Positions 11,078 through 41,029 of a stretch of 41,937 nucleotides of DNA are shown here, piece after piece. Position numbers and translations under genes: made by a program. How positions within the stretch are numbered: the stretch's first letter is position 1; every line of letters starts with the position of its first letter. The notes under the pieces are model-generated. The model did no database searches and was not told where the DNA came from. It worked only from the letters and a program-made list of their open reading frames with translations. The DNA lies in IMG/VR virus record IMGVR_UViG_3300032116_000456, positions 1-41,937 of that record. One strand, 5' to 3'. The DNA comes from a virus.

Positions 11078-11390
11078 GCGCAAGAACTCAACGTTCGATC
11101 GCCTGCACAAGTGGTTCGATCACGCCGGCGTTCACTACTTCTCTTTCGTAAATACAACCGACAAGCGCGGTGAGATCAAGCCGGTCGACATCGACTGGGA
11201 TACACTCAAGCTGTGTCTCAAAGGTCACACCAAGATTATTGCACTCGGCGGCTTCGCCTCGACGGCGCTTGGCAGGCTAAATATAGAACACTACACTTTG
11301 CCGCACCCGTCACCTCGCAACAGGAAGTTCAACGACGCGGCCTATGAACCAATGGTCATGGAAGACTTGAGAAGGTACGTTACAAAATGA
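11013..11390 (+). CDS. Uracil-DNA-glycosylase-superfamily-like protein
   Basis: A compact 125-residue protein. It opens with VLVVGMNPSNTPG (5-16), equivalent to the substrate-binding motif of family 4/5 uracil-DNA glycosylases, has an IIALGGFASTALG strand-loop (75-87), and ends with HPSPRN (98-103), equivalent to the HPSxxN motif. It lacks the iron-sulphur cysteines of family 4 and is much smaller than usual. It could excise a base or only bind a nucleotide. Its place between dCMP deaminase and the glucosyltransferase (4-base overlap) suggests a role in cytosine or uracil quality control. Confidence 0.6.
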   Translation: MNRVLVVGMNPSNTPGTTTGVERKNSTFDRLHKWFDHAGVHYFSFVNTTDKRGEIKPVDIDWDTLKLCLKGHTKIIALGGFASTALGRLNIEHYTLPHPSPRNRKFNDAAYEPMVMEDLRRYVTK

Positions 11391-12619
11391 AAGTTGCGAT
11401 TCTCATGGGACGCGGCATCGAGGGATGCGGCGTCTCTAAGTTTACTATCGAGATGGCGAAGTACCTGCAGAAGCACGGTCACGAATACGTCGTCATCGCG
11501 GCCAAGGACAAGACTTGGTCGCGAAAGAACTCTCATGAGATGCCCAACCTCATGTACATCAAGTTCGCCGAGGACGGCGCGGTCGATCACGTTGCCGACG
11601 CCTGCAACACCTGCGACTTGGTCGTCATCAACTCGCTGCCTCCGTTCGCCTACAAGAAGAACTTGAACTACGACGTCAAGGTCGCTGAGAACTTCCGCAA
11701 GATACTGCAGAAGATCCAAGCGCCTACGGTGTTGTTTCAACACGACCATAATAAGATCTCAATCACGCGCAACGACTGCCTTAAGGAATCTATCGAGAAG
11801 TCGAAGGCTCTGTTCGCCCACTCACCGACCGGCGACTTCGCGACGGTAGTCGAGTCGCTGTCTGAAGTCGGCGGGGTGTTAGGGTTCTTTGGCGCTGAGC
11901 CTGTGAAGCGTGAGATCTTAAACTTCCAGCCCGGGATGTATTTCGACGAGGTGCGCAAGAAGTACTGGAAACCCATCGAGCAGACGGACAAGATGTGTCA
12001 CCGTTGGATCGGCCGCATGGCGCTGTGGAAGGGTCCGCGACTGATGTTCGACTTCCATGAGAAGCACCTGCGCAAGATGAACGCGCTGACGATCCTCGAG
12101 GGCATGGAGAAGTCGCTGGCTTTCGTCGAGATCAAGCAGAAGTACTCATTCCAGTACTTCAACACCGAGAACCCCGACAACGTCGACTTTACTAAATACT
12201 ACGGCGACACCGCGACAGTGTTCTCATTCTACAAGAACCATGAGCTGCTCGAGCGCCTCTCAAAGTCGGGATACGGGTACCAGCTCTCGCTTCTGGACTC
12301 AAGGTACATCAAGCGATCGATCGAGTACACACACTGCGAGGTCGCCGCCGCCGGAGCGATTCCAGTCTTTCATCGCGGATACGGCGAAGCCTGCACGCAT
12401 CGAGTCCTCGGCAAGCCCTTGACAGAATGCGCCGACAGTGGTACAATCTGGCTATCAAACGACAACATGGAGCAGTGTGCTGATTTGATCGCGACGCTCA
12501 ACACAGACGACGGCCTTCGCGACGAGTATCGCGAGAAGGCCTATGAGTTCTATAAATCACACCAAGACGCAGACGCTGTCTTCGACGAAGCGTTCAAACT
12601 GATCGGAGAGGCGAAATGA
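11387..12619 (+). CDS. agt: DNA alpha-glucosyltransferase (T4 Agt-like)
   Basis: Transfers glucose from UDP-glucose to 5-hydroxymethylcytosine in DNA with alpha linkage, protecting phage DNA from host nucleases. The 410-residue protein matches T4 Agt (400 residues) over its length: MGRGIEGCGVSKF (T4 MARGLEGCGVTKF), AAKDKTWSRKNSHE, FQHDHNKISITRN, HRWIGRMALWKGPRLMFDFH (T4 NRWIGRTTTWKGFYQMFDFH), LSKSGYGYQLSLLD, and RSIEYTHCEVAAAGAIPVF. It has the two-domain GT-B layout. GAGAAGG precedes the start. It overlaps the C5-methyltransferase gene downstream by 4 bases. Confidence 0.96.
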   Translation: MKVAILMGRGIEGCGVSKFTIEMAKYLQKHGHEYVVIAAKDKTWSRKNSHEMPNLMYIKFAEDGAVDHVADACNTCDLVVINSLPPFAYKKNLNYDVKVAENFRKILQKIQAPTVLFQHDHNKISITRNDCLKESIEKSKALFAHSPTGDFATVVESLSEVGGVLGFFGAEPVKREILNFQPGMYFDEVRKKYWKPIEQTDKMCHRWIGRMALWKGPRLMFDFHEKHLRKMNALTILEGMEKSLAFVEIKQKYSFQYFNTENPDNVDFTKYYGDTATVFSFYKNHELLERLSKSGYGYQLSLLDSRYIKRSIEYTHCEVAAAGAIPVFHRGYGEACTHRVLGKPLTECADSGTIWLSNDNMEQCADLIATLNTDDGLRDEYREKAYEFYKSHQDADAVFDEAFKLIGEAK

Positions 12620-17623: not shown

Positions 17624-18697
17624 ATGCTGAAGGTGCATCAGGAGTGGGATCCTCTTAAAGTATGTGTGGTAGGTAAGAACTATCCGCCCGAGTTCTACTC
17701 GTTCATGAAGAACGCAAAGATGCGCGATCTCTTTGAGAAGATCGCGCGCGAGACTGAAGAAGACTACCAATCGCTCATCAAGATCTTAAAGTCGTTCAAC
17801 GTCGAGGTGCTTCGTCCCGACGTACCGGACGTCGTCCCGCAGGAGTACATCGATCAGAACCTACCGATCCCAGCGCCGGTGAGCTCTATCCCGCGCGACC
17901 AGATGATCATGATCGGTGAGACGTTCTTTCTCTTCCCGTACTTCAGGGTGAACCAGAAAGTAAACTGGCGATACGAAGACCAGCGCCAGTTTAAGAACTT
18001 CGATGTATGCTGGCAGGGAATCCTTGACTACGTCGCTTCCAAGGGAAACAAAGTCGTCAACAAGCAGGATGACGAGGACTTAGCGTGGATCAAGGTCAAC
18101 GGCATCTATAGGATAGGCAAGGACCTGTTCTTTGGATCGAAGGGTGAAATGTCGGACTGGAGGGTGCTCGACGCGATCGACATAATGAAGAACACATATC
18201 TCCAAGACTATACGACGCATGCAGTTACAACAGGCGGACACATCGATGGTGTATTTAGTCCTCTCAACCCAGGACTGATATTCAGCGCATACGACGCGGA
18301 GACATACGAACACACGTTCCCCGACTGGGAGGTGGTGTACTTTGAGCAGAACCGGATGAACGCCCTTGGCGAGTGGATGTATCTAAAGGAGAAGAACAAC
18401 GGTAAGTGGTTCATTCCCGGTGTCGCCGACGACGATGAGATAATAGAGTACGTTGAGCACTGGCTTCAAGACTGGCTGGGATACGTCGAGGAGACGATCT
18501 TTGACGTGAACGTCTTAATGATCGATCCAAAGAACGTCGTGGTTTCATCCTACAACGAGAAAGCTTTCAAAGCCCTTGAAAGACATGGGATCACGCCCCA
18601 CATATCCCCTATGAGACACCGGTTCTTCTGGGACGGGGGAGCGCACTGTATAACCGCTGAGCTCCATCGCGAGGGCGAGAGGAAGACTTTCTTCTGA
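17624..18697 (+). CDS. Amidinotransferase-family (pentein) protein, paralogue 1
   Basis: A 357-residue protein of the guanidine-modifying (pentein) superfamily, closest in layout to glycine amidinotransferases. The catalytic His lies in GGHIDGVFSPL (His206), and the catalytic Cys in DGGAHCITAEL (Cys342), near the C-terminus as the family requires. The opening WDPLKVCVVGKNYPPEFY matches the family N-terminal strand. Such enzymes move an amidino group from arginine or hydrolyse guanidines. Substrate here is unknown. A paralogue with 394 residues sits at 24655. It follows regA by 23 bases and ends just before a repeated-family promoter. Confidence 0.85.
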   Translation: MLKVHQEWDPLKVCVVGKNYPPEFYSFMKNAKMRDLFEKIARETEEDYQSLIKILKSFNVEVLRPDVPDVVPQEYIDQNLPIPAPVSSIPRDQMIMIGETFFLFPYFRVNQKVNWRYEDQRQFKNFDVCWQGILDYVASKGNKVVNKQDDEDLAWIKVNGIYRIGKDLFFGSKGEMSDWRVLDAIDIMKNTYLQDYTTHAVTTGGHIDGVFSPLNPGLIFSAYDAETYEHTFPDWEVVYFEQNRMNALGEWMYLKEKNNGKWFIPGVADDDEIIEYVEHWLQDWLGYVEETIFDVNVLMIDPKNVVVSSYNEKAFKALERHGITPHISPMRHRFFWDGGAHCITAELHREGERKTFF

Positions 18698-18706
18698 TCT
18701 TTTCTA

Positions 18707-18746
18707 TTGACAATTCTATGTAAATAGTGTAGGATCTAGATAATGG
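18707..18746 (+). promoter_or_regulatory. Sigma-70-like promoter, repeated family, copy 2
   Basis: TTGACA (18707-18712), 17 bases, TAGGAT (18730-18735), then CTAGATAATGG. It directs transcription of the exported His/Gly-rich protein at 18760. Confidence 0.85.
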
Positions 18747-18759
18747 ATTGGAGAACGAC

Positions 18760-19050
18760 ATGATCAAGAATGCGCTCGTGGCTGTCGCGTTACTGGCCGG
18801 AACCGCGTCAGCCCAAGCCGACGGGTACTTCCCTAGGCATGGACACCATCACCAGCACTTTCGCCACAACAACGGGGGTGGAGACGCCGGTGCCGCCCTC
18901 ATAGGAGGCCTGATCGGAGGCATGATCTTGAACCAGATGATGCAGCCCCCTCGTCCCCACTACTACCAGCCTATGTGCCAGACGGTCTTCTTGGGACGGG
19001 TCTGGAACGGGTACACTTGGGTCGAGCAGTACCAGCGGATATGTGACTGA
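18760..19050 (+). CDS. Exported His- and Gly-rich protein (96 aa)
   Basis: Has a clear Sec signal peptide: MIKNALVAVALLAGTASAQA, with a likely cleavage after ASA. The mature part has a His cluster (RHGHHHQHFRHNN) that could bind metal, a glycine-zipper stretch (AGAALIGGLIGGMILNQMM) typical of small envelope proteins, and a C-terminal domain with two cysteines (MCQTVFLG...RICD) that may form a disulfide. This looks like a bacterial envelope protein carried by the phage. GGAG lies 6 bases before ATG 18760, and it has its own promoter and terminator, so it is a single-gene unit. Function unknown. Confidence 0.75.
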   Translation: MIKNALVAVALLAGTASAQADGYFPRHGHHHQHFRHNNGGGDAGAALIGGLIGGMILNQMMQPPRPHYYQPMCQTVFLGRVWNGYTWVEQYQRICD

Positions 19051-19093
19051 AAAAACCTAATCTTTTCAACCACTTAGAAAAACTGAATCTTTT

Positions 19094-19131
19094 CAATGGC
19101 TTAGGAACCTCCCTCCTAAGCCATTGTTTTT
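19094..19131 (+). terminator. Intrinsic terminator
   Basis: A 13-base-pair stem (CAATGGCTTAGGA with TCCTAAGCCATTG), a short loop and a run of five T. It ends the single-gene unit of the exported protein at 18760. Confidence 0.88.
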
Positions 19132-19169
19132 ATTACATAATTTTTTTTCTTATTCCTATCACTTTTTTA

Positions 19170-19209
19170 TTGACATTTCTGTAGAACTTTGATAAGATCT
19201 AGATAATGG
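19170..19209 (+). promoter_or_regulatory. Sigma-70-like promoter, repeated family, copy 3
   Basis: TTGACA (19170-19175), 17 bases, TAAGAT (19193-19198), then CTAGATAATGG. Similarity to copy 1 extends upstream for about 35 bases through an AT-rich block. It drives the gene at 19227. Confidence 0.88.
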
Positions 19210-19226
19210 CAAAAGGGAATAGAGAC

Positions 19227-19433
19227 ATGGACATAGCACAAGCCTCTCAGATCATAGACAAAGTTCGCGCCGAGAACGGCTTCGGTCTCCTTGAGATGTT
19301 GGAGATCATGACCGACGAGTATCATTCGGGTGGTCTCGGATACTTCCGTGAAACATACACTCACGAAGAACGTACGGCCTATCTCATTCTTATGAACGGC
19401 TTTCGTGAATTCTTTGGTGAAAATAACGGTTGA
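19227..19433 (+). CDS. Small acidic phage protein (68 aa), unknown
   Basis: No family recognised. A helical acidic protein, MDIAQASQIIDKVRAENGFG, continuing LLEMLEIMTDEYHSGGLGYFRETYTHEERTAYLI; the YHSGGLGYFRETYT block with HEERTAY looks like a conserved protein-interaction surface. An in-frame ATG at 19206 lies at the predicted transcription start, so a leaderless form with seven extra residues is possible. ATG 19227 is preferred because AAGGG lies upstream. The stop codon overlaps the -35 box of the next promoter. Confidence 0.6.
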   Translation: MDIAQASQIIDKVRAENGFGLLEMLEIMTDEYHSGGLGYFRETYTHEERTAYLILMNGFREFFGENNG

Positions 19434-19469
19434 CATTCTTATCAAAATAGTATAAGATCTAGATAATGG
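19430..19469 (+). promoter_or_regulatory. Sigma-70-like promoter, repeated family, copy 4
   Basis: TTGACA (19430-19435, overlapping the upstream stop codon), 17 bases, TAAGAT (19453-19458), then CTAGATAATGG. The ten bases before the -35 box (AAAATAACGG) are the same as at 349 and 39503. Confidence 0.88.
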
Positions 19470-19491
19470 CAATTGAAAAGGAACCTAGACT

Positions 19492-19764
19492 ATGAAGAAA
19501 GACTTCGCCTCTGCGATCTCGTACATCCTCACTTCAGCTTCAAACGACGAGTTGAACTCGATCTATGAAGCCATTGTCAATCGTCGTCAGTCACTGTCGC
19601 GCACCGCCCGTGTCAAGTTCATGTCGGGCGACAAAGTGAAGTTCTCAGCGCGCGGTGTCGACTACTCGGGCGTCATCAAAGACGTCAAGATCAAGAAAGC
19701 TTCGGTCAAGATGACGAACGGTCAAACGTACTTGGTCCCCCTCAACATGTTGGAGGCAGCATGA
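19492..19764 (+). CDS. Small phage protein with SH3/KOW-like tail (90 aa)
   Basis: An N-terminal helical segment (ISYILTSASNDELNSIYEAI) is followed by a basic linker and a beta-rich C-terminus, KFMSGDKVKFSARGVDYSGV then IKDVKIKKASVKMTNGQTYLV. The GDxVxF...G.I..V pattern is that of KOW or SH3-like nucleic-acid or protein-binding barrels. A role in transcription or translation control is possible. The leader contains a nine-codon reading frame from the ATGG at 19466 that ends in an ATGA overlap with this start. A 4-base overlap joins it to the next gene. Confidence 0.65.
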   Translation: MKKDFASAISYILTSASNDELNSIYEAIVNRRQSLSRTARVKFMSGDKVKFSARGVDYSGVIKDVKIKKASVKMTNGQTYLVPLNMLEAA

Positions 19765-19952
19765 AGTACTACGTCCTCACCTTCCACGCGGTCAAAAACG
19801 ATGGATCATACGGACCCATGTACGGCAATCCAATGATCTTTGTCACCCGCGAAGACGCGATCGAGTATGGTCGTCATCGAGTAGACTATTCAAGAACCGA
19901 CTTCAAAGTAAATGAAACTATCGTCACCAAACACGTAGTAGGAACAAAATAA
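19761..19952 (+). CDS. Small phage protein (63 aa), unknown
   Basis: Begins MKYYVLTFHAVKNDGSYGPM, with later MIFVTREDAIEYGRHRV, a strand-helix pattern of a small alpha/beta domain. No family recognised. ATGA overlap with the gene before and 1-base overlap with the DUF932 gene after place it inside a tight operon driven by the promoter at 19430. Confidence 0.65.
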   Translation: MKYYVLTFHAVKNDGSYGPMYGNPMIFVTREDAIEYGRHRVDYSRTDFKVNETIVTKHVVGTK

Positions 19953-20899
19953 TGGCACACTTAGTAGAAACGATGGCATACGCAGGCGAGACACCATGGC
20001 ACGGCTTAGGCGTCCCAGTACACAACGACCTCACTCCGGCCCAGATGCTTGAGAAAGCTGGACTCGATTGGACCGTCGAGAAGGTTCCAACGTTCTGTGA
20101 GTTCAAGGACGAGCTCATCCCAACGGACGACTACGCTTTGGTTCGCTCAAGCGACAGCAAGGTGTTGACGACGGTCTCGGGCGACTGGGAACCAATTCAG
20201 AACCACGAAGCTTTCGAGTTCTTCAACGACTTCGTCATGGCCGGCGACATGGAGATGCACACAGCGGGCTCACTCGACGGCGGTCGAAGCGTCTGGGCTC
20301 TCGCTAAGATCAAGGAGTCTTTCGACATCGTGACGGGCGACAGGGTCGAACCCTACCTCCTCTTCTCCAACCCGCACACATACGGCAAGTGTGTCGACAT
20401 TAGGTTCACAGGCATTCGAGTGGTGTGCAACAACACGCTCACAGTCGCTCTTAACGGCACCACCGACATGATGGTACGCCTGAACCACCGCAACAAGTTC
20501 GACGCCGAGTCGGTCAAGCACACGATGGGAATGGCCAGCAAACGGATGGGCACCTACGTAGATGTGGCTAAGTACCTCACGACCAAGCGCATCACCGACG
20601 ACACGGTTAAGAACTACTTCCGGACCGTTTTCCCATCGATGGTCAAGGACGACACCGACTACCTCGATCGCCCGCTCTCGCGTCCGGCGTCGATGGCGCT
20701 CGAGGTTCTCGAAACCCAACCGGGGGCCGAGTACGGTACCGGAAGTTGGTGGCAGGCGTTCAACGCGGTAACATATACCACTGACCACCTGCTCGGACAC
20801 TCGGCAGACTCACGGCTTAAGTCGGCTTGGTACGGACAGAATCGCCAGCGCAAGATCAAGGCGCTTGAAACAGCAGTGGAATTCGCGGACGCGGCTTAA
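19952..20899 (+). CDS. DUF932 phage/plasmid-like protein
   Basis: A 315-residue member of DUF932 (the family also known as phage/plasmid-related TIGR03299). Diagnostic segments are the N-terminal AYAGETPWHGLGVPV, a central DIRFTGIRVVCNNTLTVAL, and the C-terminal WQAFNAVTYTTDHLLGH. These proteins are widespread on phages and plasmids of many bacteria; the biochemical role is unknown, although conserved Asn/Asp and His residues suggest nucleic-acid binding or enzymatic activity. It is full length. It closes the operon from 19430 and is followed by a late-promoter-like element. Confidence 0.88.
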   Translation: MAHLVETMAYAGETPWHGLGVPVHNDLTPAQMLEKAGLDWTVEKVPTFCEFKDELIPTDDYALVRSSDSKVLTTVSGDWEPIQNHEAFEFFNDFVMAGDMEMHTAGSLDGGRSVWALAKIKESFDIVTGDRVEPYLLFSNPHTYGKCVDIRFTGIRVVCNNTLTVALNGTTDMMVRLNHRNKFDAESVKHTMGMASKRMGTYVDVAKYLTTKRITDDTVKNYFRTVFPSMVKDDTDYLDRPLSRPASMALEVLETQPGAEYGTGSWWQAFNAVTYTTDHLLGHSADSRLKSAWYGQNRQRKIKALETAVEFADAA

Positions 20900-20914
20900 G
20901 CCGCGTCTCCCTCG

Positions 20915-20922
20915 TATAAATA
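20915..20922 (+). promoter_or_regulatory. T4-type late promoter TATAAATA
   Basis: An exact match to the T4 late-promoter consensus, in the 40-base gap between the DUF932 gene and the gene at 20940. Transcription would start near 20929, just before the GGAG ribosome-binding site. The matching sigma factor, gp55, is encoded at 3261. Confidence 0.6.
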
Positions 20923-20939
20923 GGAACATGGAGTGAACG

Positions 20940-21176
20940 ATGCCTAAAGTTACAGTAGAACTTGAATATGAACAGATCGACGCGATCACGCTCGGTGAAC
21001 TCAAGTCTTCCTACGAGCAGCTCGTCAAAGACTGGGAAAACAACGTTCGAGTCTATGACGATCCCGACGATCACTGGAATCTGATGGTCGGCTTCGAGAA
21101 AGTGATCCAGTACTTCATGGTGCACAGTGAGTTCAACGACTACATGGCATCCTTCCCCCTCCGCAAAAGGGATTAA
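20940..21176 (+). CDS. Small acidic phage protein (78 aa), unknown
   Basis: Begins MPKVTVELEYEQIDAITLGE and continues LKSSYEQLVKDWENNV, with a mid-region DPDDHWNLMVGFEKVIQYFM. This strand-plus-helices layout is shared by small phage proteins of unknown role. GGAG 7-10 bases before ATG 20940 supports the start. It stops directly before the GATase-like gene (adjacent TAA-ATG). Probably late-expressed if the TATAAATA at 20915 is used. Confidence 0.65.
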   Translation: MPKVTVELEYEQIDAITLGELKSSYEQLVKDWENNVRVYDDPDDHWNLMVGFEKVIQYFMVHSEFNDYMASFPLRKRD

Positions 21177-21839
21177 ATGAAGCCAGTCGTTTCGGTCTAC
21201 CACAATCACCCCTATTGTTCGACCGACTCGGCTTTGGGCGTCGCCAACGCCCTGCAGGAAGAATTCGACGTCAAGTTCTTTACGAACGACGACTTCGACT
21301 TAGCTCTCGAGCGATCGGCCATGATCGTGTTCCCCGGAGGGTTGGGCGACGCCGATCAGTTCGATAAGATACTCGGCGACAAGAAAGAAAAAGTCAAAAG
21401 CTACGTTGCGAACGGTGGTAAGTACTTAGGCATCTGCATGGGTGCATACTGGGCAGACCACTGGTACTTCGACCTCCTACAAGATCTGGAGTGCAATCGC
21501 TTCATAAAGCAGACTAACAGCGAAACTACCAGATCATACGGTACGGTCGTCGACGTGATTTGGTATGGTGTGAGTGAACCGTTGAAGATGTACTTCTACG
21601 ACGGCTGTGTGATCGAGGGGACCGGCAGGTGTGAGATCGTGGCGAAGTACGCCTCAAATCACGGCTGGGCAGCGGTCATACAGGGAAACGTTGGTGTGAT
21701 AGGAATGCATCCAGAATCGACCAAGCACTGGTTCACTTACAAGACCCATAAGTACATGAAGGCCCTGTGGCATGAGGGACGGCAACACAACCTGCTCGCG
21801 GATGTGGTCGCCCGAATGATCAACGACAGGGACTGCTAG
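21177..21839 (+). CDS. Class I glutamine-amidotransferase-like (BPL_N-type) protein
   Basis: A 220-residue protein of the class I GATase-like fold, nearest to the N-terminal domain seen in eukaryotic biotin-protein ligases (BPL_N). The opening VSVYHNHPYCSTDSALGVAN is typical, IVFPGG lies near residue 53, the nucleophile elbow is GICMGAYWA (Cys near 89), and GMHPESTKHWF supplies the conserved His. Substrate unknown; family members are thought to act on peptides or to supply ammonia. Its TAG stop shares a base with the following tRNA gene. Confidence 0.72.
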   Translation: MKPVVSVYHNHPYCSTDSALGVANALQEEFDVKFFTNDDFDLALERSAMIVFPGGLGDADQFDKILGDKKEKVKSYVANGGKYLGICMGAYWADHWYFDLLQDLECNRFIKQTNSETTRSYGTVVDVIWYGVSEPLKMYFYDGCVIEGTGRCEIVAKYASNHGWAAVIQGNVGVIGMHPESTKHWFTYKTHKYMKALWHEGRQHNLLADVVARMINDRDC

Positions 21840-21913
21840 GACGGGTAGCTTAAAGGTGAAGCCGGCCGCTCATAACGGTCTAAGTGTAGGTTCGAGTCCT
21901 ACCCTGTCCACCA
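21839..21913 (+). tRNA. tRNA-Met (CAT), or lysidine-type tRNA-Ile
   Basis: Complete cloverleaf: acceptor GGACGGG with CCTGTCC (one G-T pair), D-stem GCTT/AAGC, anticodon stem GGCCG/CGGTC with loop CTCATAA (anticodon CAT), T-arm GTAGG/CCTAC, and encoded CCA. The lack of three G-C pairs in the anticodon stem argues against initiator tRNA. A CAT anticodon could also be a lysidine-modified tRNA-Ile, which T4 itself encodes. Confidence 0.92.
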
Positions 21914-21921
21914 TTTTTTTA

Positions 21922-21950
21922 TTGACAAACGTCGCACACTACGGTATAAT
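21922..21950 (+). promoter_or_regulatory. Consensus sigma-70-like promoter
   Basis: TTGACA (21922-21927), 17 bases, and a perfect TATAAT (21945-21950), just after the tRNA gene. It drives the two small genes at 21983 and 22177 and probably the radical SAM gene. The seven T before it could act as a terminator tail for the tRNA transcript. Confidence 0.88.
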
Positions 21951-21982
21951 GGAATATATAGTCTACAACATGGAGATACCCT

Positions 21983-22180
21983 ATGTCTATCTACCCAGCA
22001 TCCTACAAGTACGTCGTGGAGTTCGAGAAGTTCTTCACCAAGGGTAACCTGAAGTCCCTAACCATCAAGGATCGGTTGCACTTCGCCACCGAGCGGGACG
22101 CGAAGGACTGGGTCGACGCCGTCGGCAAGCTCAACAGGGACGGCAAGTTTTTCAACTTCAAAGTGAGGAGTGCAGCATGA
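21983..22180 (+). CDS. Small basic phage protein (65 aa), unknown
   Basis: Begins MSIYPASYKYVVEFEKFFTK and includes LHFATERDAKDWVDAVGKL, a strand-strand-helix layout suggesting a small alpha/beta domain. No family recognised. TGGAGATACC before the ATG and the consensus promoter immediately upstream support expression. It shares a 4-base overlap with the membrane protein downstream. Confidence 0.65.
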   Translation: MSIYPASYKYVVEFEKFFTKGNLKSLTIKDRLHFATERDAKDWVDAVGKLNRDGKFFNFKVRSAA

Positions 22181-22362
22181 AGTTTCACGAGTACTTAACC
22201 TACGCCATCATCGCGTTCATCGTCGTAGATCTCATCTACAGGCTCTTCAGCCAAGACTGGGGCAACATCGGCCTGTCGATCACAGCCCTCATCGGTTGGT
22301 TCTACGTCCAAGGCTACGAGCGTCAGGAGCGCCTCGAGCGCGAAGCGAAGTTCACGCCTTAA
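22177..22362 (+). CDS. Small membrane protein (61 aa)
   Basis: Two hydrophobic segments, YAIIAFIVVDLIYRLF and IGLSITALIGWFYVQGY, are separated by a short polar turn, and the C-terminal tail is charged (ERQERLEREAKF). This predicts a two-helix inner-membrane hairpin. The ATGA start overlap and 1-base overlap with the radical SAM gene put it in one operon. Function unknown; small membrane proteins of this size can be holin-like or regulators of host transporters, but nothing specific is visible. Confidence 0.7.
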   Translation: MKFHEYLTYAIIAFIVVDLIYRLFSQDWGNIGLSITALIGWFYVQGYERQERLEREAKFTP

Positions 22363-23405
22363 TGTATAAGTACGAAGACGTCAGGGTGGTTCACCTTGAG
22401 ATAACCGGCAAGTGTCAAGCCGGCTGCTCGATGTGTTCAAGAAACGATGAGACCGACAGCGACATCCTTGTGGCTCCAACCACTGCTGAGCTGAGCTACG
22501 AAGACTGTGTCAAGATCTTTCCAAAGGACCTGATCAAGCAGCTCAGCGGCATGTATATGTGCGGCAACTACGGCGATCCCATCATCGCCAAGGATACGCT
22601 TGAGGTGTTCGAGTACTTTAGGTATGCTAATCGCGACATGGAGCTGAATATGTACACCAACGGTGGGGCACGATCCCCGACGTGGTGGAAGGACTTGGCC
22701 GGAATACTTCAGCACGGAAAAGGAAGGGTCGTCTTCGCGGTCGATGGTCTTGAGGACACAAATCACATCTACAGGGAGAACGTTCGCTGGAACAACGTCA
22801 TGTCGTCGGCGAAGGCCTTCATCGCCGCCGGCGGCGAAGCGCGATGGCACTACTTGGTTTTCAAACACAACGAGCATCAAGTTGAAGAAGCGAGGGAGCT
22901 GGCGAAGAAGATGGGATTCGCCTCCTTCGTCGTCAAGCGAACGAGCAGGTGGCAGGGTCAGACCACGTATAAGCACCTGTCTCAACCTGAGAAGAAGGAA
23001 TACGTTCACCAAGTCAACAACATCAAGGCGCAGATCGTTAAGATCTACGGATCATTTGATAACTTTGTGAATAAAACGAGTATAAGTTGTAGGGTGCAGA
23101 AGGAGAGGGGCATCTACATAACGGCCGAGGGGCTCATGGTTCCCTGCTGCTGGCTCGGTGGATCCGCCATCTACGACGCCGATAAGCGCTCATACAAAGA
23201 GGGTGAACTGTTTCAACACATGGGCGGCGATAAAAGCAACATCAACGCTAAGGTTCACGGGATAAAGAAGATCTTAGAGGACGGCTTCTTCGATAAGATA
23301 GAGAAGTCGTGGAGCTCAGGCTCCACGACCAATGGTAAGCTTAAGACCTGCGCGAAGGTGTGTTCCGTGGATCACGACAACTTCGGCGAGCAATTCATAA
23401 AATGA
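22362..23405 (+). CDS. Radical SAM protein with C-terminal SPASM-like cysteines
   Basis: A 347-residue radical SAM enzyme. The [4Fe-4S] motif CQAGCSMC (CxxxCxxC) lies near residues 17-24 after the usual hydrophobic strand (VVHLEITGK). GNYGDPI is the GGE-like SAM-binding strand, and NMYTNGG is typical of the core barrel. The C-terminus has further cysteines (ISCRV, VPCCWLG, CAKVCS) spaced like a SPASM or twitch domain holding auxiliary clusters, as in enzymes that modify peptides or small molecules. No precursor peptide is evident. Start ATG 22362 is set by the overlap with the previous stop. Confidence 0.85.
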   Translation: MYKYEDVRVVHLEITGKCQAGCSMCSRNDETDSDILVAPTTAELSYEDCVKIFPKDLIKQLSGMYMCGNYGDPIIAKDTLEVFEYFRYANRDMELNMYTNGGARSPTWWKDLAGILQHGKGRVVFAVDGLEDTNHIYRENVRWNNVMSSAKAFIAAGGEARWHYLVFKHNEHQVEEARELAKKMGFASFVVKRTSRWQGQTTYKHLSQPEKKEYVHQVNNIKAQIVKIYGSFDNFVNKTSISCRVQKERGIYITAEGLMVPCCWLGGSAIYDADKRSYKEGELFQHMGGDKSNINAKVHGIKKILEDGFFDKIEKSWSSGSTTNGKLKTCAKVCSVDHDNFGEQFIK

Positions 23406-23735
23406 TCACTGTGAGTTGTTCGACGCGCTAACGTATGCGTTCGCGCCAAAGAACGTAGCGACGACACCAGCTTGGGCTATGTAGAACATCTGCAGGAGCG
23501 ATCCAAGCGCGGCAACCTTCTCTATAGACACCAACGGTGAGAACAGTATGCCGGTGAAGATCACCATGCTGCCCATAGCGACCCACGCCATCTGGCGAAG
23601 CTGGTCTTCCTTCTTGTCCTTATTCTCAAACTCAATCATGTGTTCCATCTTCTTCATCTCGTCGTCGGAAACCACTCCGTCGCCGTCCGCGTCGTACTGG
23701 TTGTACTTTGAGTTCTTCTCAAGCGATTTAGCCAT
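23406..23735 (-). CDS. EF-hand membrane protein (109 aa)
   Basis: The N-terminal part carries one canonical EF-hand calcium loop, DADGDGVVSDDEM (residues about 15-27). Two membrane helices follow (MAWVAMGSMVIFTGILFSPLV and a LGSLLQMFYIAQAGVVATFF segment). A calcium-sensing or calcium-stabilised small membrane protein is predicted. It is the last gene of a minus-strand three-gene membrane operon (24455 to 23406) opposed to everything around it, and it ends immediately beside the radical SAM stop. AAAGGGA precedes its ATG. Related proteins occur in T4-like marine phages, without a known role. Confidence 0.8.
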   Translation of the reverse strand: MAKSLEKNSKYNQYDADGDGVVSDDEMKKMEHMIEFENKDKKEDQLRQMAWVAMGSMVIFTGILFSPLVSIEKVAALGSLLQMFYIAQAGVVATFFGANAYVSASNNSQ

Positions 23736-23739
23736 CAGT

Positions 23740-24024
23740 TCATCCCTTTGATTTTATCATTGACGTTAAGTTGTTGATCAACTCACCGCCGAAGCCTATC
23801 GATCCTGTGATCACTCCGGCGAACGCTAAAGCTATGACGATCATGGTCAAACATATCAGCCAGACGCTTGAGGTGCCAAGGTTGTCCTCGATCTCAATGA
23901 TCTGATTCTTCAATATCTCGAGCTGCTCCTTAGGGTGTCCGTCGGCTTTATCGTAGTCCTGCAGCCATGGGTGCGCGGCGACTTCGTCGGACAACTTATC
24001 TGGAGACTTCCTTTTCTTCTTCAT
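23740..24024 (-). CDS. Single-span membrane protein (94 aa)
   Basis: A basic N-terminus (MKKKRKSPDKLSDEV) is followed by a helical amphipathic segment (KEQLEILKNQIIEIEDN) and one long hydrophobic helix (VWLICLTMIVIALAFAGVITG). The N-terminal domain is probably cytoplasmic. Its start overlaps the upstream stop (ATGA), so translation is coupled to the coiled-coil gene. Part of the minus-strand operon of three membrane proteins. Holin, spanin or virion-assembly roles are possible; none is proven. Confidence 0.72.
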   Translation of the reverse strand: MKKKRKSPDKLSDEVAAHPWLQDYDKADGHPKEQLEILKNQIIEIEDNLGTSSVWLICLTMIVIALAFAGVITGSIGFGGELINNLTSMIKSKG

Positions 24025-24455
24025 AGGAACTTAAACGCTAAGAATAAGCCGCTGCCGATGAAGACGATGAGAAAGACGATGGCGACGATGATCCAAACGG
24101 TTTCCCAGAACTCTTCCTTCCTGCGAGCCTCTTCCCTGCGCAGGCGCTCAGCTTCCTTCGCCGCTTCAACCTTCGCCTTGTAGTAGGCTTCACGTTGAGC
24201 CTTCGACATCTTCATTAGCGCGGCTTTTTCTTGCTCAGCTACGATCTCACGCATCGCCTGCTCGCGAAGCGCGTTGTTCATACGAACTACCTGATTGTTG
24301 ATCTCGGTGACTTTGTTGCGAGCTGCGACCTTGGAGTTGTTCTCAGCCTTGATTCGCTTTGAGTCGCGAACCGTATCGACGATTCCAAAGATTGAGTTGG
24401 TTAGACCCTTACCGATTGAGTTGCCGAACTTCGCGGCTGACTTTGGATCCATCAT
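24021..24455 (-). CDS. Coiled-coil protein with C-terminal membrane anchor (144 aa)
   Basis: The central region is a long charged helix (LREQAMREIVAEQEKAALMK, then KAQREAYYKAKVEAAKEAER and LRREEARRKEE), expected to form a coiled coil. The last 28 residues are one hydrophobic helix (TVWIIVAIVFLIVFIGSGLF). The N-terminus is Gly/Ser-rich. This is a tail-anchored layout. AAGGAACGGA before the ATG is a strong RBS. First gene of the minus-strand operon; a TATAAATA late element on the same strand lies about 180 bases upstream (24641-24634). Confidence 0.75.
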   Translation of the reverse strand: MMDPKSAAKFGNSIGKGLTNSIFGIVDTVRDSKRIKAENNSKVAARNKVTEINNQVVRMNNALREQAMREIVAEQEKAALMKMSKAQREAYYKAKVEAAKEAERLRREEARRKEEFWETVWIIVAIVFLIVFIGSGLFLAFKFL

Positions 24456-24633
24456 GATTCCGTTCCTTACTTTTATTCCAAATCATTCTGTATCTCTCTC
24501 AAGTCGCAGCCGAAGCTTCTCGGCTATCTGTGATTTTTTTGTTAAAAAAACAAGCGCTCCAGACTTACTGTAGACGCTGAAGTAAACCTGCCCTGATGTG
24601 AATCTTCTTCTTACTATTAAATACATCGCATAG

Positions 24634-24641
24634 TATTTATA
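24634..24641 (-). promoter_or_regulatory. T4-type late promoter TATAAATA (minus strand)
   Basis: TATAAATA read on the minus strand, facing the three-gene membrane operon that starts at 24455. It would give a leader of about 170 bases. The rest of the 199-base divergent gap (24456-24654) shows AT-rich sequence but no gene. The plus-strand RBS AAAGGTG for the gene at 24655 lies right beside it. Confidence 0.5.
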
Positions 24642-24654
24642 AAGGTGAAACATA

Positions 24655-25839
24655 ATGGTGAACAGTTGGGACGAGTTTCAGCCGCTTCAGGAGTTGGTCC
24701 TCGGCAGCTTCTACGACAGGAGCTTCTTTGAGGATATACGAAACCCTAGGATCAGAGACGTGCTCGTACAGATCGCCGACGAGACGCAGGAAGACCTAGA
24801 GAACTTCAAAGAGAAGATGAAGTCACACGGAGTCTCAGTTGTGCAGTACACGCCGGAGGAGCTCGGCTACAAGGAGAGCATCCTCGACTACGTCGACATA
24901 TACGGCAGGCTGAGTCTCGAAGGATCAAACAAGCACAACTACCCGCTGAAAGCAAACATGCTTCCGGCGCCTCCGCTTGAGCCTCGAGACAACATCATAG
25001 TCATGGGAGATAAGATCTTCGTTAGCGATCCAACGTACGCTTCTAAGAAGATATCTGAGAAGCTTAAGGAGACTTACGGCGTTGATAGCGTCGACGACTC
25101 ACTCAGCGACGACAACACCAAGTTTCGTCGCGGTAGAGAAAACATACTATCTAGACTTAAGCGCACGATGGATCACGACGCCGTCGACCGCATGTCAGAC
25201 GATGAGATCGATCGACACTCCGCAAGCACCATGCTCACCGGCTTCTGCAGCCCTAACTTGACGCGCATAGGCTCAAAGTGCTTGGTCGATGTCGCTCAGA
25301 CCGAGGACGCCGTACCATTTCTTGAGAAGAACTACCCTAAGTTCAAGTACGATAAGCTCAACCTAGGCGGACACAACGACAGCATCTTCGGCGTTCTAAA
25401 GCCGGGACTCGTCATCGCGTCTAAGTTCTTAGCCGAGTGCAAGCAGGAGAGCGTGTTTGAGAAGTGGAAGGTCATCTACTTCGACGATCCGGTATGGGAC
25501 CGCGTCGGTAAGTTCAAGAAGCTGCGCAGGAAGAACCTAGGCAAGTGGTGGGTTCCCGATCAAGAGGACAACGACGACTTCACCTACTTCGTCGAGTACT
25601 TCCTTGAGAACTTAACCGGTCAAGTCGATGAGACGGTGTTCGACGTAAACGTATTGGTTATCGACGACAAGCACGTCGTGGTCAACAGCGCGAGCAAGGA
25701 GCTGTTCAAGGTTCTACGGGAGAACGGCATGGAGCCGATCCACTGTCCGATAAGACACAGGTTCTTCTTCGACGGCGGATGGCACTGCTTGACGCTCGAC
25801 ACCATAAGGAAGGGGGAGCAGGTTGATTACGGAATTTAA
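24655..25839 (+). CDS. Amidinotransferase-family (pentein) protein, paralogue 2
   Basis: A 394-residue paralogue of the protein at 17624. Both share the opening (WDEFQPLQELVLGSFYDRSF versus WDPLKVCVVGKNYPPEFY), the catalytic His motif GGHNDSIFGVL (His240), the NLGKWWVPD block (NNGKWFIPG in the other), ETVFDVNVLVID, and the catalytic Cys motif DGGWHCLTLD (Cys378). About 40 extra charged residues are inserted before the His motif (145-190). It should transfer or hydrolyse guanidino groups; the substrate is unknown. AAAGGTG precedes the ATG. It overlaps the next gene by 17 bases, suggesting a joint function. Confidence 0.85.
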   Translation: MVNSWDEFQPLQELVLGSFYDRSFFEDIRNPRIRDVLVQIADETQEDLENFKEKMKSHGVSVVQYTPEELGYKESILDYVDIYGRLSLEGSNKHNYPLKANMLPAPPLEPRDNIIVMGDKIFVSDPTYASKKISEKLKETYGVDSVDDSLSDDNTKFRRGRENILSRLKRTMDHDAVDRMSDDEIDRHSASTMLTGFCSPNLTRIGSKCLVDVAQTEDAVPFLEKNYPKFKYDKLNLGGHNDSIFGVLKPGLVIASKFLAECKQESVFEKWKVIYFDDPVWDRVGKFKKLRRKNLGKWWVPDQEDNDDFTYFVEYFLENLTGQVDETVFDVNVLVIDDKHVVVNSASKELFKVLRENGMEPIHCPIRHRFFFDGGWHCLTLDTIRKGEQVDYGI

Positions 25840-26332
25840 GGAAGACGTTGAGAAGTGGATCGTCGACTGGGTCAGCGTATACAACGAGAACTTAAAGCAC
25901 ATCCCGTGCCCGTTCGCAAAGAAGGCCATGCTCGACGGTCAGATCGAGTGGAGCTTCGTTGAGAGCATCGAGGAGCTGAAGGCACTGCTTCAAGAAGCAT
26001 ACTTCGACAAGGAAGTGTGGATGATCGGCTTCGATCCTGAGAAGATCGAAGCCGGTGGGCTCTCGGAGGAGGTGCATCGGTTCAACTCGGACTACATGCC
26101 GAAGGGAATCATAGCGCTCGAGGATCACCCTCACGACAAGGAAGTCATACTCGGCGAACGGATGAACCAAGGAAAGTGGGGTTGGGTTGGCGTGCAGAGG
26201 CTCGCTAAGATCGACAGGGCGAGCCAGCAGCTCGCTAGAACGGGCTACTACGACCTATGGCCCGAAGAAACGTACGCCGACGTGGTCGCTTGGAGGCACG
26301 ATGAGAAGCTCAGGAAGGTAGAATCTAGATAA
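25823..26332 (+). CDS. Conserved phage protein with CPFA motif, partner of amidinotransferase
   Basis: A 169-residue protein with VYNENLKHIPCPFAKKAM near the N-terminus. Cys and the following hydrophobic-basic stretch look like a conserved site, and I associate this pattern with uncharacterised proteins in marine phages and bacteria. Later segments are WMIGFDPEK and a YDLWPEETYADVVAWR tail. TTG start with AGGGGGAG 6 bases upstream, lying inside the end of the amidinotransferase gene (17-base overlap), so the two are translationally coupled. A role in the same guanidino or amine chemistry is inferred only from this coupling. Confidence 0.65.
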   Translation: MITEFKEDVEKWIVDWVSVYNENLKHIPCPFAKKAMLDGQIEWSFVESIEELKALLQEAYFDKEVWMIGFDPEKIEAGGLSEEVHRFNSDYMPKGIIALEDHPHDKEVILGERMNQGKWGWVGVQRLAKIDRASQQLARTGYYDLWPEETYADVVAWRHDEKLRKVESR

Positions 26333-27275: not shown

Positions 27276-29825
27276 ATGTCAAAGTTCTACACCAACGCTT
27301 TCTTGTTCCACGACTCGATCTTCCTTCGCGGCTTCGAAGAGGGTCGACGCGTGATGAAGACGATCCCATGCAAGCCGTACGTATTCGTGAACTCGAAGCG
27401 TCCGAACGCCGAGTTCAAGACGCTCAAGGGTCAGCCGGTCGATAAGCTTCAGTTCGATCGACCCGCTGAAGCGCGCGACTTCCTTCGCCAGTATGAGAAC
27501 GTCAGCGGCTTTGAAGTCTACGGTATGACGCAGTGGCTCTATCCGTTCCTCAACGACTACTATCCCGGTGAGATCGACTACGATCCCAAGATGGTGTCGG
27601 TCGTAAACATCGACATCGAGGTCGCCGCCGACGACGGGTTCCCCGACGTTCACGTGGCCGACAAGCCGATCACCGCGATCACCGTAAAGAAGAACGACAT
27701 CTACGTCGTGCTCGGCTGCGGCGACTTCGTCACCAACGACGATAAGATCAAGTACTTGAAGTGTGAGAACGAAGAGAGACTTCTCCTTAAGTTCCTCGAC
27801 GTCTGGCGAAGCGAGTGGTTGTCGCCCGACGTCATCACAGGTTGGAACATCGATAAGTTCGACATCCCGTACATCGTCAACCGCATACGACGTGTGCTTG
27901 GACACGAGATGCACAAGAAGCTCTCGCCGTGGGGAATGGTCGAGGAGCGCGAGATCATCCGCGGCAAGTCGGCGGCTCGAGGCGGCAACGGGATCGACGA
28001 TCGCAAAGACGTGGTGTATGAGATCTACGGCATCACCTCGCTCGACTACCTTGAGACTTATAAGAAGTTCTCGTTTAAGAACCAAGAGTCCTACCGACTC
28101 GACTACATCGGCGAGGTTGAGCTCGGCGTCAAGAAGCTCGACTACTCCGAGCACGGCTCGCTGCTTGAGCTCTATAAGCAAGACTATCAGAAGTTCATCG
28201 AGTACAACATCCGCGACGTTGAGATCGTATCGAAGCTCGACGACAAGCTGAAGCTCATCGAGCAGGTGTTCGCCATCGCGTACGACGCGAAGGTCAACTT
28301 CTCCGACGCGTATGGGTCCGTTCGCATCTGGGACGTCATCATCCACAACTACCTCATCAACCAGCGCGTCGTCATCCCGCAGAAGCGCCCGAGCCACAAG
28401 GACAAGCAGATCATCGGCGGATACGTCAAAGATCCCCTGCTCGGCATGCACGACTGGGTGGTGTCTTTCGACTTGAACTCGCTCTACCCACACCTGATCA
28501 TGCAGTACAACATCTCTCCTGAGACCTATGCAGGCAAGCTGCCGCTCAGCGAGGAGACTTCGGTGCAGCGGATACTCGATGGGTACCTCGACGAGCTTCA
28601 CGTTCGCAACGAGATGACCGCGAGAAACTTAACCGTGACCGGCTCAGGCGTGATGTTCGAGCGCGATAAGCAGGGCTTCCTTCCTAAGCTGATGGAGAAG
28701 ATGTACGAAGACCGCGTCGTGTATAAGAAGCGAATGCTTGAAGCCGAGCAGCAGTACCAGAAGACTCCGACACCCGAGCTTGAGAAAGTCATAGCGCAGA
28801 ACAAGAACATGCAGCTCGCGCGAAAGATTCAGTTGAACTCAGCCTACGGCGCGCTGTCGAACAAGTACTTCCGCTGGTACGACGACACGCTCGCCGAGTC
28901 GATCACGCTCTCAGGTCAGCTGGCGATCATGTGGATCGCCCGCGACATGAACAAGTACCTCAACAAGCTATTCACGACGAAGGACGCCGACTATGTCATT
29001 GCATGCGATACGGATTCTATGTACATTACGCTTGGCAAACTTGTCTCTAAATGCGGCCTTGAGGGGTCGCCGACTTCTGAGATCGTCAAATTCCTTGACA
29101 ACGCGATTGAAAGTAAGATTGAACCTTTCATTGAGTCAAGCTACGGGCGTCTTGGCGGAATGGTTAATGCCTACGCCCAGAAGATGAAGATGAAGCGCGA
29201 GGCGATCGCCGACAAGGGTATATGGACCGCGAAGAAGCACTACATCCTCAACATCTGGAACAACGAGGGTGTGGCGTACGCGGAACCCAAGGTGAAAGTC
29301 GTCGGCATCGAAGCGGTGAGGTCCTCGACGCCTCAAGCTTGTCGCGAGAAGATCAAGCAGTGTCTCAAGGTCATCATGGGTAAGACCGAAGACGACGTCA
29401 TCAAGTTCATCGCGCAGTTCCGTGACGAGTTCGTCAAGATGTCGTACGAAGAAGTCGCGTTCCCTCGTGGATGCAAGGGCCTCAGTGAGTATGCGGATCG
29501 CGACAGTATCTATAAGAAGGGTACGCCGATCCAAGTTCGCGGCGCGCTGCTGTACAACCACCACGTCAAGCAGAAGAAGCTCAGCACGAAGTATGAGCTG
29601 ATCAAGGAAGGCGACAAGATCAAGTTCTGCTACATGAAGCTTCCCAACCCGATACGCGAGAACGTCGTCGCATCGCTCGGCGCTCTTCCTCCCGAGCTTG
29701 GTCTCGAGACGTATATAGACTACGAGCTGCAGTACTCAAAAGCTTTCGTCGAGCCGCTGAAGACGATCCTAGACGCGATCGGCTGGCGCACCGAGAAGAA
29801 AGCGTCGATAGAAAGTTTCTTCTGA
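27276..29825 (+). CDS. 43: gp43 DNA polymerase
   Basis: Family B replicative polymerase with 3'-5' exonuclease. Exonuclease motifs are NIDIEVA (Exo I), GWNIDKFDIPYI (Exo II) and YNIRDVEIV (Exo III); polymerase motifs are SFDLNSLYPHLI (A), KIQLNSAYGALSNKYF (B) and ACDTDSMYI (C). The C-terminal KKASIESFF is a clamp-binding peptide like T4 EKASLDFLFG. About 849 residues (T4: 898). ATG 27276 is preferred; ATG 27270 adds two residues. No Shine-Dalgarno precedes either start, and a promoter lies directly upstream, suggesting leaderless or unusual initiation. No intron or intein is visible. Confidence 0.96.
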   Translation: MSKFYTNAFLFHDSIFLRGFEEGRRVMKTIPCKPYVFVNSKRPNAEFKTLKGQPVDKLQFDRPAEARDFLRQYENVSGFEVYGMTQWLYPFLNDYYPGEIDYDPKMVSVVNIDIEVAADDGFPDVHVADKPITAITVKKNDIYVVLGCGDFVTNDDKIKYLKCENEERLLLKFLDVWRSEWLSPDVITGWNIDKFDIPYIVNRIRRVLGHEMHKKLSPWGMVEEREIIRGKSAARGGNGIDDRKDVVYEIYGITSLDYLETYKKFSFKNQESYRLDYIGEVELGVKKLDYSEHGSLLELYKQDYQKFIEYNIRDVEIVSKLDDKLKLIEQVFAIAYDAKVNFSDAYGSVRIWDVIIHNYLINQRVVIPQKRPSHKDKQIIGGYVKDPLLGMHDWVVSFDLNSLYPHLIMQYNISPETYAGKLPLSEETSVQRILDGYLDELHVRNEMTARNLTVTGSGVMFERDKQGFLPKLMEKMYEDRVVYKKRMLEAEQQYQKTPTPELEKVIAQNKNMQLARKIQLNSAYGALSNKYFRWYDDTLAESITLSGQLAIMWIARDMNKYLNKLFTTKDADYVIACDTDSMYITLGKLVSKCGLEGSPTSEIVKFLDNAIESKIEPFIESSYGRLGGMVNAYAQKMKMKREAIADKGIWTAKKHYILNIWNNEGVAYAEPKVKVVGIEAVRSSTPQACREKIKQCLKVIMGKTEDDVIKFIAQFRDEFVKMSYEEVAFPRGCKGLSEYADRDSIYKKGTPIQVRGALLYNHHVKQKKLSTKYELIKEGDKIKFCYMKLPNPIRENVVASLGALPPELGLETYIDYELQYSKAFVEPLKTILDAIGWRTEKKASIESFF

Positions 29826-30469
29826 TGAAGCTACACACATCGCAGGGCGACGTCATCATAGACATACCCGAAGAATACACGAAGATCGGCATCAAGATCT
29901 CTGGTGGAGCCGACAGCGCCCTTCTCGCCTACATGCTTGCACTGTACAAGAAGCACGAGAGAGACGTAGACCTGATACCTATCACGGTCATCAACGCGAT
30001 CAAGCCGCACCAGCACATCTTCGCGCAGAGGGTGGTCAAGTTCGTCGAAGATAAACTGAGCGTGAAGTTCAATCACCATCAGATAAAGCCTGAGCCGGTA
30101 GATCCTCAGAGGTACGGTGAGGAGCAGTCTATCTTCGTTAGAAGCTTGAGGAAGCAGGAGATAATCGAGACGCACTTCACAGGTATAACTGAGAATCCAG
30201 ACGTTGAGCTTAAGACCGACTACACCGGCGATTCAACAAGAAACAAAGATCTTGGGTCTAAACCCACGAGAGACCTGTATTCATTCCATCCGTTCGCCAA
30301 CATAAATAAGAAAGCCATAGCCGAACTTTATGAAAGCTATGGACTTATGGACACTCTCTTCGCGATAACAAGAAGCTGTGAAAACAGCAAGATTCACTTC
30401 ACCGAACCACACTGCGGAAAGTGCTGGTGGTGCCTCGAGAGGCAGTGGGGATTCGGTAGGCTCGAATAG
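29825..30469 (+). CDS. PP-loop ATPase (QueC-like N-type ATP pyrophosphatase)
   Basis: A 214-residue protein with the PP-loop SGGADS (26-31) of N-type ATP pyrophosphatases, which adenylate a substrate carbonyl before amination or thiolation. Its C-terminus has CENSKIHF...CGKCWWCLERQWGF (Cys185, 197, 200, 203), a four-cysteine zinc site like that of QueC, the preQ0 synthase. QueC itself, an asparagine-synthetase-like enzyme or a tRNA-thiolating relative are all possible. No other 7-deazaguanine genes (folE, queD, queE, dpdA) are visible here. It overlaps the DNA polymerase stop by 1 base. Confidence 0.72.
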   Translation: MKLHTSQGDVIIDIPEEYTKIGIKISGGADSALLAYMLALYKKHERDVDLIPITVINAIKPHQHIFAQRVVKFVEDKLSVKFNHHQIKPEPVDPQRYGEEQSIFVRSLRKQEIIETHFTGITENPDVELKTDYTGDSTRNKDLGSKPTRDLYSFHPFANINKKAIAELYESYGLMDTLFAITRSCENSKIHFTEPHCGKCWWCLERQWGFGRLE

Positions 30470-40484: not shown

Positions 40485-40674
40485 ACGATTCAAGCGCGCG
40501 TTTTGGGACTGGTTCGACTCATTAAATAAAGAGGAGAAGAACCGGTTCTGGTACTACACCGCCGACATGTCGAAGATCTACTTTTATAATAAACACTATG
40601 CCAAAGTACTCGCGAATAAACTTGAGAGCGACAAAGTACAAGACGTTCGAGCAGGGATGGAAGTTTCTTCATAA
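40456..40674 (+). CDS. Small protein (72 aa), overlapping both neighbours
   Basis: MSSTNLDKDERFKRAFWDWF, then DSLNKEEKNRFWYYTADMSK and IYFYNKHYAKVLANKLESDK. Aromatic-rich and helical in the first 45 residues, which look real; the last part overlaps the following gene by 77 bases. GAGG lies 12 bases before ATG 40456. The overlap on both sides means one of the three frames may be shorter than stated. Confidence 0.45.
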   Translation: MSSTNLDKDERFKRAFWDWFDSLNKEEKNRFWYYTADMSKIYFYNKHYAKVLANKLESDKVQDVRAGMEVSS

Positions 40675-41029
40675 CGTCGACGTCTATCTTCTAAACGAGA
40701 TCTATAAGAAGTACTGTCGCTACAAGAAGTTCGAGAGCGTCATGCCGATCTTCTACGGAGAGTACACCGACCTTCACAGCGACGTCATAGGCTACTACGA
40801 AGGTGAGCGACTCATCGCGTTCAGCCTGATAAAGATACACGATTATGAGAACGTTGAGTGCGTTCAGTTCGCTTGGGACTATGAGAACCCTAAGCTTCGC
40901 CTAGGCATAGAGAGCTTGAAGCACGAGTGCGCCCTCTACAGGGACAAGGGATTCAAGTACATGTACCTCGGTGAGGCGGCTGAATACAAGAGCACCATCG
41001 ACGGCTACGAGGAGCTAGGACCTATATAA
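40598..41029 (+). CDS. GNAT/ATE-like acyl- or aminoacyl-transferase-fold protein
   Basis: A 143-residue protein with SDVIGYYEGERLIAFSLIKI, FAWDYENPKLRLGIESLKHE and GFKYMYLGEAAEYKS. The last two segments resemble the C-terminal half of aminoacyl-tRNA-protein transferases (FLxWDYxxPxLxLGxxxL, YxYLG) and, more broadly, GNAT-fold proteins. The catalytic residues of the arginyl-transferase N-terminal cysteine domain are absent. It shares a 1-base overlap with the next gene. Function is a fold-level guess. Confidence 0.5.
   Translation: MPKYSRINLRATKYKTFEQGWKFLHNVDVYLLNEIYKKYCRYKKFESVMPIFYGEYTDLHSDVIGYYEGERLIAFSLIKIHDYENVECVQFAWDYENPKLRLGIESLKHECALYRDKGFKYMYLGEAAEYKSTIDGYEELGPI

Follow-up and report, generated by a model that had tools for sequence, protein, structure and literature searches.

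Paired pentein genes of an uncultivated virus as probable parts of a virus-restricted multi-enzyme set

Closest described systems and the locus

Phevamine A is an amino-acid–polyamine conjugate, and the HsvABC pathway that makes it, in which we know of no ATE-like enzyme, is the closest analogue of the genes analysed here, two pentein genes (pent1 and pent2) and their partners on a 41,937-nucleotide stretch of viral DNA (IMG/VR record IMGVR_UViG_3300032116_000456, positions 1 to 41,937; this whole stretch is called the window below). Both systems combine an amidinotransferase-type protein with partner enzymes, and the comparison by homology covers HsvA alone. The hsv operon enzymes that make phevamine A include the amidinotransferase-like HsvA (PMC13123061); a paper in the reference list of PMC12833800 calls HsvA a polyamine amidinotransferase in its title. 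The window features at the centre of this study are:

17624..18697, + strand: pent1, 357 aa, AGAT-fold pentein of a virus clade, subfamily II
24655..25839, + strand: pent2, 394 aa, the other pentein of this clade, on a deep branch
25810..25818, + strand: Shine-Dalgarno-like AAGGGGGAG upstream of the TTG start at 25823, called from the sequence
25823..26332, + strand: CP[FY]A protein, 169 aa, CPFA motif at residue 29, DUF6875/DUF1415-like
40598..41029, + strand: GNATx, 143 aa, small GNAT-fold protein, ATE_C-like (PF04377)
41029..41361, + strand: DUF6614 protein, 110 aa, its start overlapping the GNATx stop by 1 base

An earlier note on this DNA had pointed to two diverged penteins about 6 kb apart with intact catalytic His and Cys, the second overlapped by a CPFA-motif gene behind a ribosome-binding site, and these open reading frames (ORFs) are confirmed, with a spacing of 5.96 kb and about 30% identity between the two penteins. 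The CPFA gene starts 17 bases inside pent2, an overlap that is also present in the relative L005. The note had further described this pair as fused in translation; the overlap stands, while the CPFA gene is probably translationally coupled to pent2 rather than fused to it. The GNATx and DUF6614 genes, 14 kb downstream, had been missed.

Among sequenced phages, the T4-like Campylobacter phages CP220 and CPt10, described in 2010, carry clusters in which a putative glycine amidinotransferase accompanies five radical S-adenosylmethionine (SAM) genes (PMC2853527); annotated amidinotransferase-like genes in T4-like phages thus precede the earlier note, whose remark on T4 biology needs this correction. 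They resemble the window phage in being T4-like and in having an amidinotransferase-like gene amid radical SAM genes, but their pentein belongs to another subfamily (I), in which Asp254 of AGAT is kept, and their genomes gave no match to CP[FY]A or GNATx. Synechococcus phage S-SCSM2R, with genes annotated as 'glycine/inosamine amidinotransferase', likewise has two penteins, one of them near a radical SAM gene; 2-oxoglutarate (2OG)-Fe oxygenases lie near both and one pentein sits amid glycosyltransferases. It differs in showing no GNATx match and in a CP[FY]A homologue that stands apart, at 57 kb. GNATx resembles the aminoacyl-tRNA-protein transferases ATE1/Bpt in its match to ATE1 folds and its score over the ATE_C Pfam cut-off, but it has only 143 aa against about 490–510 aa in ATE1 PDB chains, and its operon partners are penteins and DUFs. 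The parts of the set are variants of known enzyme families, and their combination matches none of the known systems compared.

A gene set conserved across viral contigs

We are confident that pent1, pent2 and the CPFA gene belong to a set of several enzymes that is confined to viruses, together with an ATE_C-like GNAT protein, a DUF6614 protein and often a radical SAM protein, on the basis of homology, operon organisation, purifying selection and virus restriction at the level of close relatives. Pentein relatives are present on at least 584 viral-contig stretches, and in 62 non-redundant pentein loci the commonest neighbours are CP[FY]A (31 loci), GNATx (144 aa; 26) and DUF6614 (17), whose start and stop codons typically overlap. 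L083 is an example of a compact locus, with CP[FY]A, GNATx, pentein and DUF6614 genes. Scans with GNATx and DUF6614 as queries start from the partners and therefore avoid the pentein bias: around GNATx, CP[FY]A is present in 52/52 loci, DUF6614 in 46/52 and pentein in 20/52, while around DUF6614 the counts are 54/55 for CP[FY]A, 55/55 for GNATx and 26/55 for pentein. Pooling pentein- and partner-anchored scans gave 118 non-identical complete sets, defined as CP[FY]A, GNATx and DUF6614 within 5 kb. Since the pentein is inside 50 of these, beside 7 and absent nearby from 61, we regard CP[FY]A–GNATx–DUF6614 as the core and the pentein as a frequent accessory. Any other ORF of at least 90 aa occurs inside the complete set in only 3 of the 118, 193 of the 273 same-strand junctions overlap, and gene order and strand vary among loci while the module genes remain together. 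Of 150 module loci, 67 have a radical SAM gene from the same family as that of the window at a distance of no more than six genes. The earlier note had suggested an unrecognised pathway and had named a lack of co-occurrence across phages as what would speak against it; pentein, CPFA-type, ATE_C-like, DUF6614 and radical SAM genes do co-occur, in tight operons of many uncultivated viruses.

Elsewhere the set usually forms one operon; in the window it is split over three places, at 17.6, 24.7–26.3 and 40.6–41.4 kb. In the relative G001, GNATx and DUF6614 lie at the other contig end, a position that fits a split arrangement common to both. All parts of the window set are under purifying selection, as judged from the ratio of non-synonymous to synonymous substitution rates (dN/dS): against L005 it is 0.033 for pent1 and 0.038 for pent2, from which we conclude that both are maintained proteins, and 0.29 for the CPFA gene, and for DUF6614 it is 0.009 against the nearest relative.

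Close relatives of GNATx were found on at least 479 viral-contig stretches and those of DUF6614 on at least 533, and neither protein had any match in 50,697 phage genomes, in scans that detect fairly close relatives only. In about 85,000 cellular genomes DUF6614 had no match and GNATx one, on a 6.3 kb contig of a metagenome-assembled genome that also carries CP[FY]A and pentein genes. More distant DUF6614 members, a family with a Pfam model, may occur elsewhere, and relatives of CP[FY]A and of the penteins are present in some sequenced phages. Since none of the sequenced phage genomes searched held the parts most typical of the set, it appears to be a pathway of viral chemistry that has yet to be described. 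On the contig of the metagenome-assembled genome (L259), positions 2101–6106, directly after the module, hold a run of ORFs judged by eye to be 2OG-oxygenase-like.

As for the individual partners, window GNATx scores 27.1 bits against ATE_C, the C terminus of Arg-tRNA-protein transferase (cut-off 25), and 15 of 20 GNATx members match this family at E 1 or better. Its structure model is confident (predicted local distance difference test, pLDDT, 93.5), with ATE1 as the best PDB folds at a template-modelling (TM) score of 0.72. The acetyl-CoA motif [QR]xxGx[GA] occurs in 0 of the 20 members, and ATE_C is the sole Pfam match of the 143-aa protein, the N-terminal ATE domain not being found in it. 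DUF6614 takes its name from a Pfam match of the homologue L042 (PF20319, 85.5 bits, cut-off 25); the window copy is 60–78% identical to 13 aligned relatives, and no mention of the family was found in the literature searched. In the CP[FY]A family, 21 of 28 members match DUF6875 (best E 9e-5), while the window protein matches only DUF1415 at E 0.14, under the Pfam cut-off. Its model is likewise confident (pLDDT 93.1); it gave no fold match in the PDB at E 0.001, and the good matches in BFVD are unnamed or uncharacterised viral proteins.

Two other candidates were dropped. One conserved ORF of 62 aa, next to the set in 59 loci, was considered as the precursor of a ribosomally synthesized and post-translationally modified peptide; it also occurs in Atu_ph07 and Phosso, two jumbo phages in which neither GNATx nor DUF6614 was found, and is probably an ordinary phage gene. 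A known defence system was also considered, and PADLOC gave no convincing match.

Pentein active sites, proposed chemistry and alternatives

Neither pentein has a Pfam match, and PHROGs offers only family 25854, of unknown function. With phmmer and a profile built from 18 phage relatives, matches to solved AGAT-family enzymes were obtained, the profile reaching HsvA (E = 5e-29), human AGAT (8e-28), SxtG (2e-27) and StrB1 (7e-24); its hits comprise entries 5wpi, 2jdx, 6u1r and 1bwd (E 7e-24 to 5e-29). Like the AGAT family (human AGAT, HsvA, StrB1, SxtG, CyrA/AoaA), both penteins keep the PRD Asp, the catalytic His, the HxD Asp and the catalytic Cys (D92, H206, D208 and C342 in pent1; D112, H240, D242 and C378 in pent2). 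These residues align with Asp170, His303, Asp305 and Cys407 of AGAT, where Asp170 and Asp305 are the numbers that we take to be those of the PRD and HxD equivalents. The catalytic residues named for AGAT are Asp254, His303 and Cys407 (PMC3684758), and at the Asp254 position pent1 has Lys157 and pent2 Cys198, so that the earlier designation as amidinotransferases stands for the family profile, His and Cys and fails for this catalytic Asp. In pent1, E290 and D337 are candidates for a residue that would take the place of Asp254. Across 70 diverse pentein relatives the Asp254 column holds Asn in 34 and Asp in 11. In the tree, 8 Asp-keeping rows (subfamily I: CP220, CPt10, the second S-SCSM2R gene and five contigs) split from 66 others that include both window copies (subfamily II) with support 99/97. 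pent1 falls inside a clade of module-linked penteins, while pent2 forms a deep, long branch whose position is unsure. A further difference from the AGAT family lies in new conserved motifs, ETxFDVN and RHRxFxDGGxHC. Because the clade lacks the catalytic Asp254 of AGAT, the name amidinotransferase denotes family resemblance only for the window copies, and amidino transfer from arginine by them is not established. A pentein of marine virus AG-345-D19 (L020 8001–9296) has lost its catalytic Cys (GLDGIT), and its PRD and HxD motifs are incomplete; it is a probable dead paralogue.

The best explanation overall, in which the conserved set is taken together with a chemistry for it, has in our estimate a probability of roughly 0.4. 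The chemistry itself is tentative. The ATE-like partner favours an aminoacyl-tRNA-dependent product. GNATx would take an amino acid, which may be Arg, from its charged tRNA and attach it to an amine, which could be a small amine or the N terminus of a protein; the pentein Cys would attack the guanidine of arginine, free or within the GNATx product, and the penteins would then hand on the amidino group, with an amine or water as its acceptor, before a radical SAM enzyme would finish the product. Hundreds of uncultivated T4-like phages might in this way join a tRNA-derived amino acid to an amine and remodel the guanidine with a new class of pentein that lacks the AGAT catalytic Asp, often with a radical SAM finishing step, to give a virus-specific conjugate or protein modification. 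Polyamines, peptides and other amines are open candidates for the acceptor, and the interpretation given in the earlier note is, overall, partly supported. If the proposal is true, a widespread virus-encoded pathway would pair aminoacyl-tRNA-type transfer with guanidine chemistry, through core genes with almost no close counterpart in the cellular genomes and none in the phage genomes searched, and the operon would make the product of a viral radical SAM-type chemistry testable with a handful of genes.

Several points weigh against this explanation. The loss of Asp254 may mean that transfer chemistry is altered or absent, and the use of aminoacyl-tRNA by GNATx, as well as its amino acid, is putative. 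Locus counts are not independent, given shared ancestry and common T4-type synteny, and the complete sets are pooled from two kinds of scan, with more than half of them lacking a nearby pentein. L007 retains the CPFA gene, while pent2 was not found at this locus. Three radical-SAM-rich contigs of 80–138 kb (G002–G004, the contigs of L011, L013 and L016) bear 2–3 penteins and 16–21 radical SAM matches each, and GNATx and CP[FY]A were not found in them; the penteins thus also occur in another setting. A tRNA-Arg that adjoins the window DUF6614 gene was considered as part of the set and rejected, since of 114 loci only 1 has such a tRNA gene at a distance of 1.5 kb or less.

The same set could instead act on virion proteins, with N-terminal aminoacylation and guanidine or radical chemistry on a structural, for example baseplate, protein. 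ATE1-class enzymes target proteins, the radical SAM protein is SPASM-like, a baseplate-hub gene stands beside the set in 68 of 150 loci, and CP[FY]A homologues precede gp25 in S-PM2 and S-RIM32. This location may merely mirror T4 synteny, the window set lies among replication genes, and the 62-aa ORF by the set is probably no precursor peptide, which leaves this alternative unlikely, though worth keeping in mind. The position among replication genes would suit a role of the set in decorating a modified base of the phage DNA, as would the AGT (DNA alpha-glucosyltransferase), C5-cytosine methylase-like and thymidylate synthase-family genes at 9.8–13.8 kb of the window. Co-occurrence lends no support to such DNA-base modification, which the earlier note had listed among its options: of 41 contigs that carry the module or its penteins, only 2, the window and a near relative, have AGT, a scan for Tet_JBP without a positive control found it in 0 of 41, and the baseplate-hub neighbourhood in other phages argues the other way. 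A role on DNA keeps a small probability. Inherited T4-like synteny with no functional link would account for the same flanking baseplate and gp46-type genes at many loci, but we consider it quite improbable, since the genes stay together while order and strand vary, the pentein is nearly the sole guest gene, and the window retains every part of its split set under selection.

Two readings concern the penteins alone. As deiminase- or dihydrolase-type hydrolases they might, during infection, break down host arginine as a source of nitrogen, energy or polyamines, in keeping with a pentein family that retains Cys, His and two Asp and with weak C-terminal matches to arginine deiminase, dimethylargininase and arginine dihydrolase models. 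These matches reach 12–17 bits against curated cut-offs of at least 300, far too low for membership of the deiminase or dihydrolase families, whereas the profile matches are AGAT-family transferases; a simple catabolic enzyme would, moreover, have no need of ATE_C-like, DUF6614 and CP[FY]A operon partners, and we hold this reading to be unlikely. Homology to human AGAT would also allow a stand-alone auxiliary metabolic gene for guanidinoacetate or creatine, in line with a report of enriched GAMT in ocean viruses in which the creatine pathway is discussed (PMC11360552). With Asp254 lost in both copies and relatives placed in tight operons with unrelated enzymes, this is highly improbable.

Neighbouring genes and minor observations

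The radical SAM, GATase-like and glycosyltransferase genes that the earlier note had reported nearby are borne out, the first two by Pfam. Together with a further neighbour they are:

22365..23405, + strand: radical SAM protein, PF04055, CxxxCxxC at residues 17–24, Cys 242/261/262/329/333, SPASM-like
21177..21839, + strand: class-I GATase/BPL_N-like protein (Pfam) between pent1 and pent2, conserved in L005, candidate set member only
29825..30469, + strand: QueC-like PP-loop protein, candidate neighbour with a putative link to the set
11387..12619: DNA alpha-glucosyltransferase (AGT), E 3e-75

The radical SAM protein matches PF04055 at its cut-off (29.5 bits), with CQAGCSMC at residue 17. A PP-loop family, to which the QueC-like protein may be related, is found close to the module at 11 loci. 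At 9841–13812 of the window, a thymidylate synthase-family gene, a dCMP-deaminase-like ORF, AGT and a C5-cytosine methylase-like gene stand in a row; by eye the first resembles dCMP hydroxymethylase, the deaminase call also being made by eye, and these genes perhaps point to T4-style glucosylated cytosine. Between the penteins, 19952–20899 encodes a DUF932/TIGR03299 protein that is 86–98% identical in L005 and L007, and 23406–24455, between the radical SAM gene and pent2, holds three small minus-strand ORFs, the first with an EF-hand-like stretch. A periplasmic-binding-type protein (PBP_like_2, E 6e-39) at 38588–39460 resembles cyanophage pstS. Just downstream of the module in L154 (11272–11814) and in eight other module loci lies a nucleosidase-like ORF, by eye a methylthioadenosine/S-adenosylhomocysteine (MTA/SAH) nucleosidase, which could recycle radical SAM by-products.

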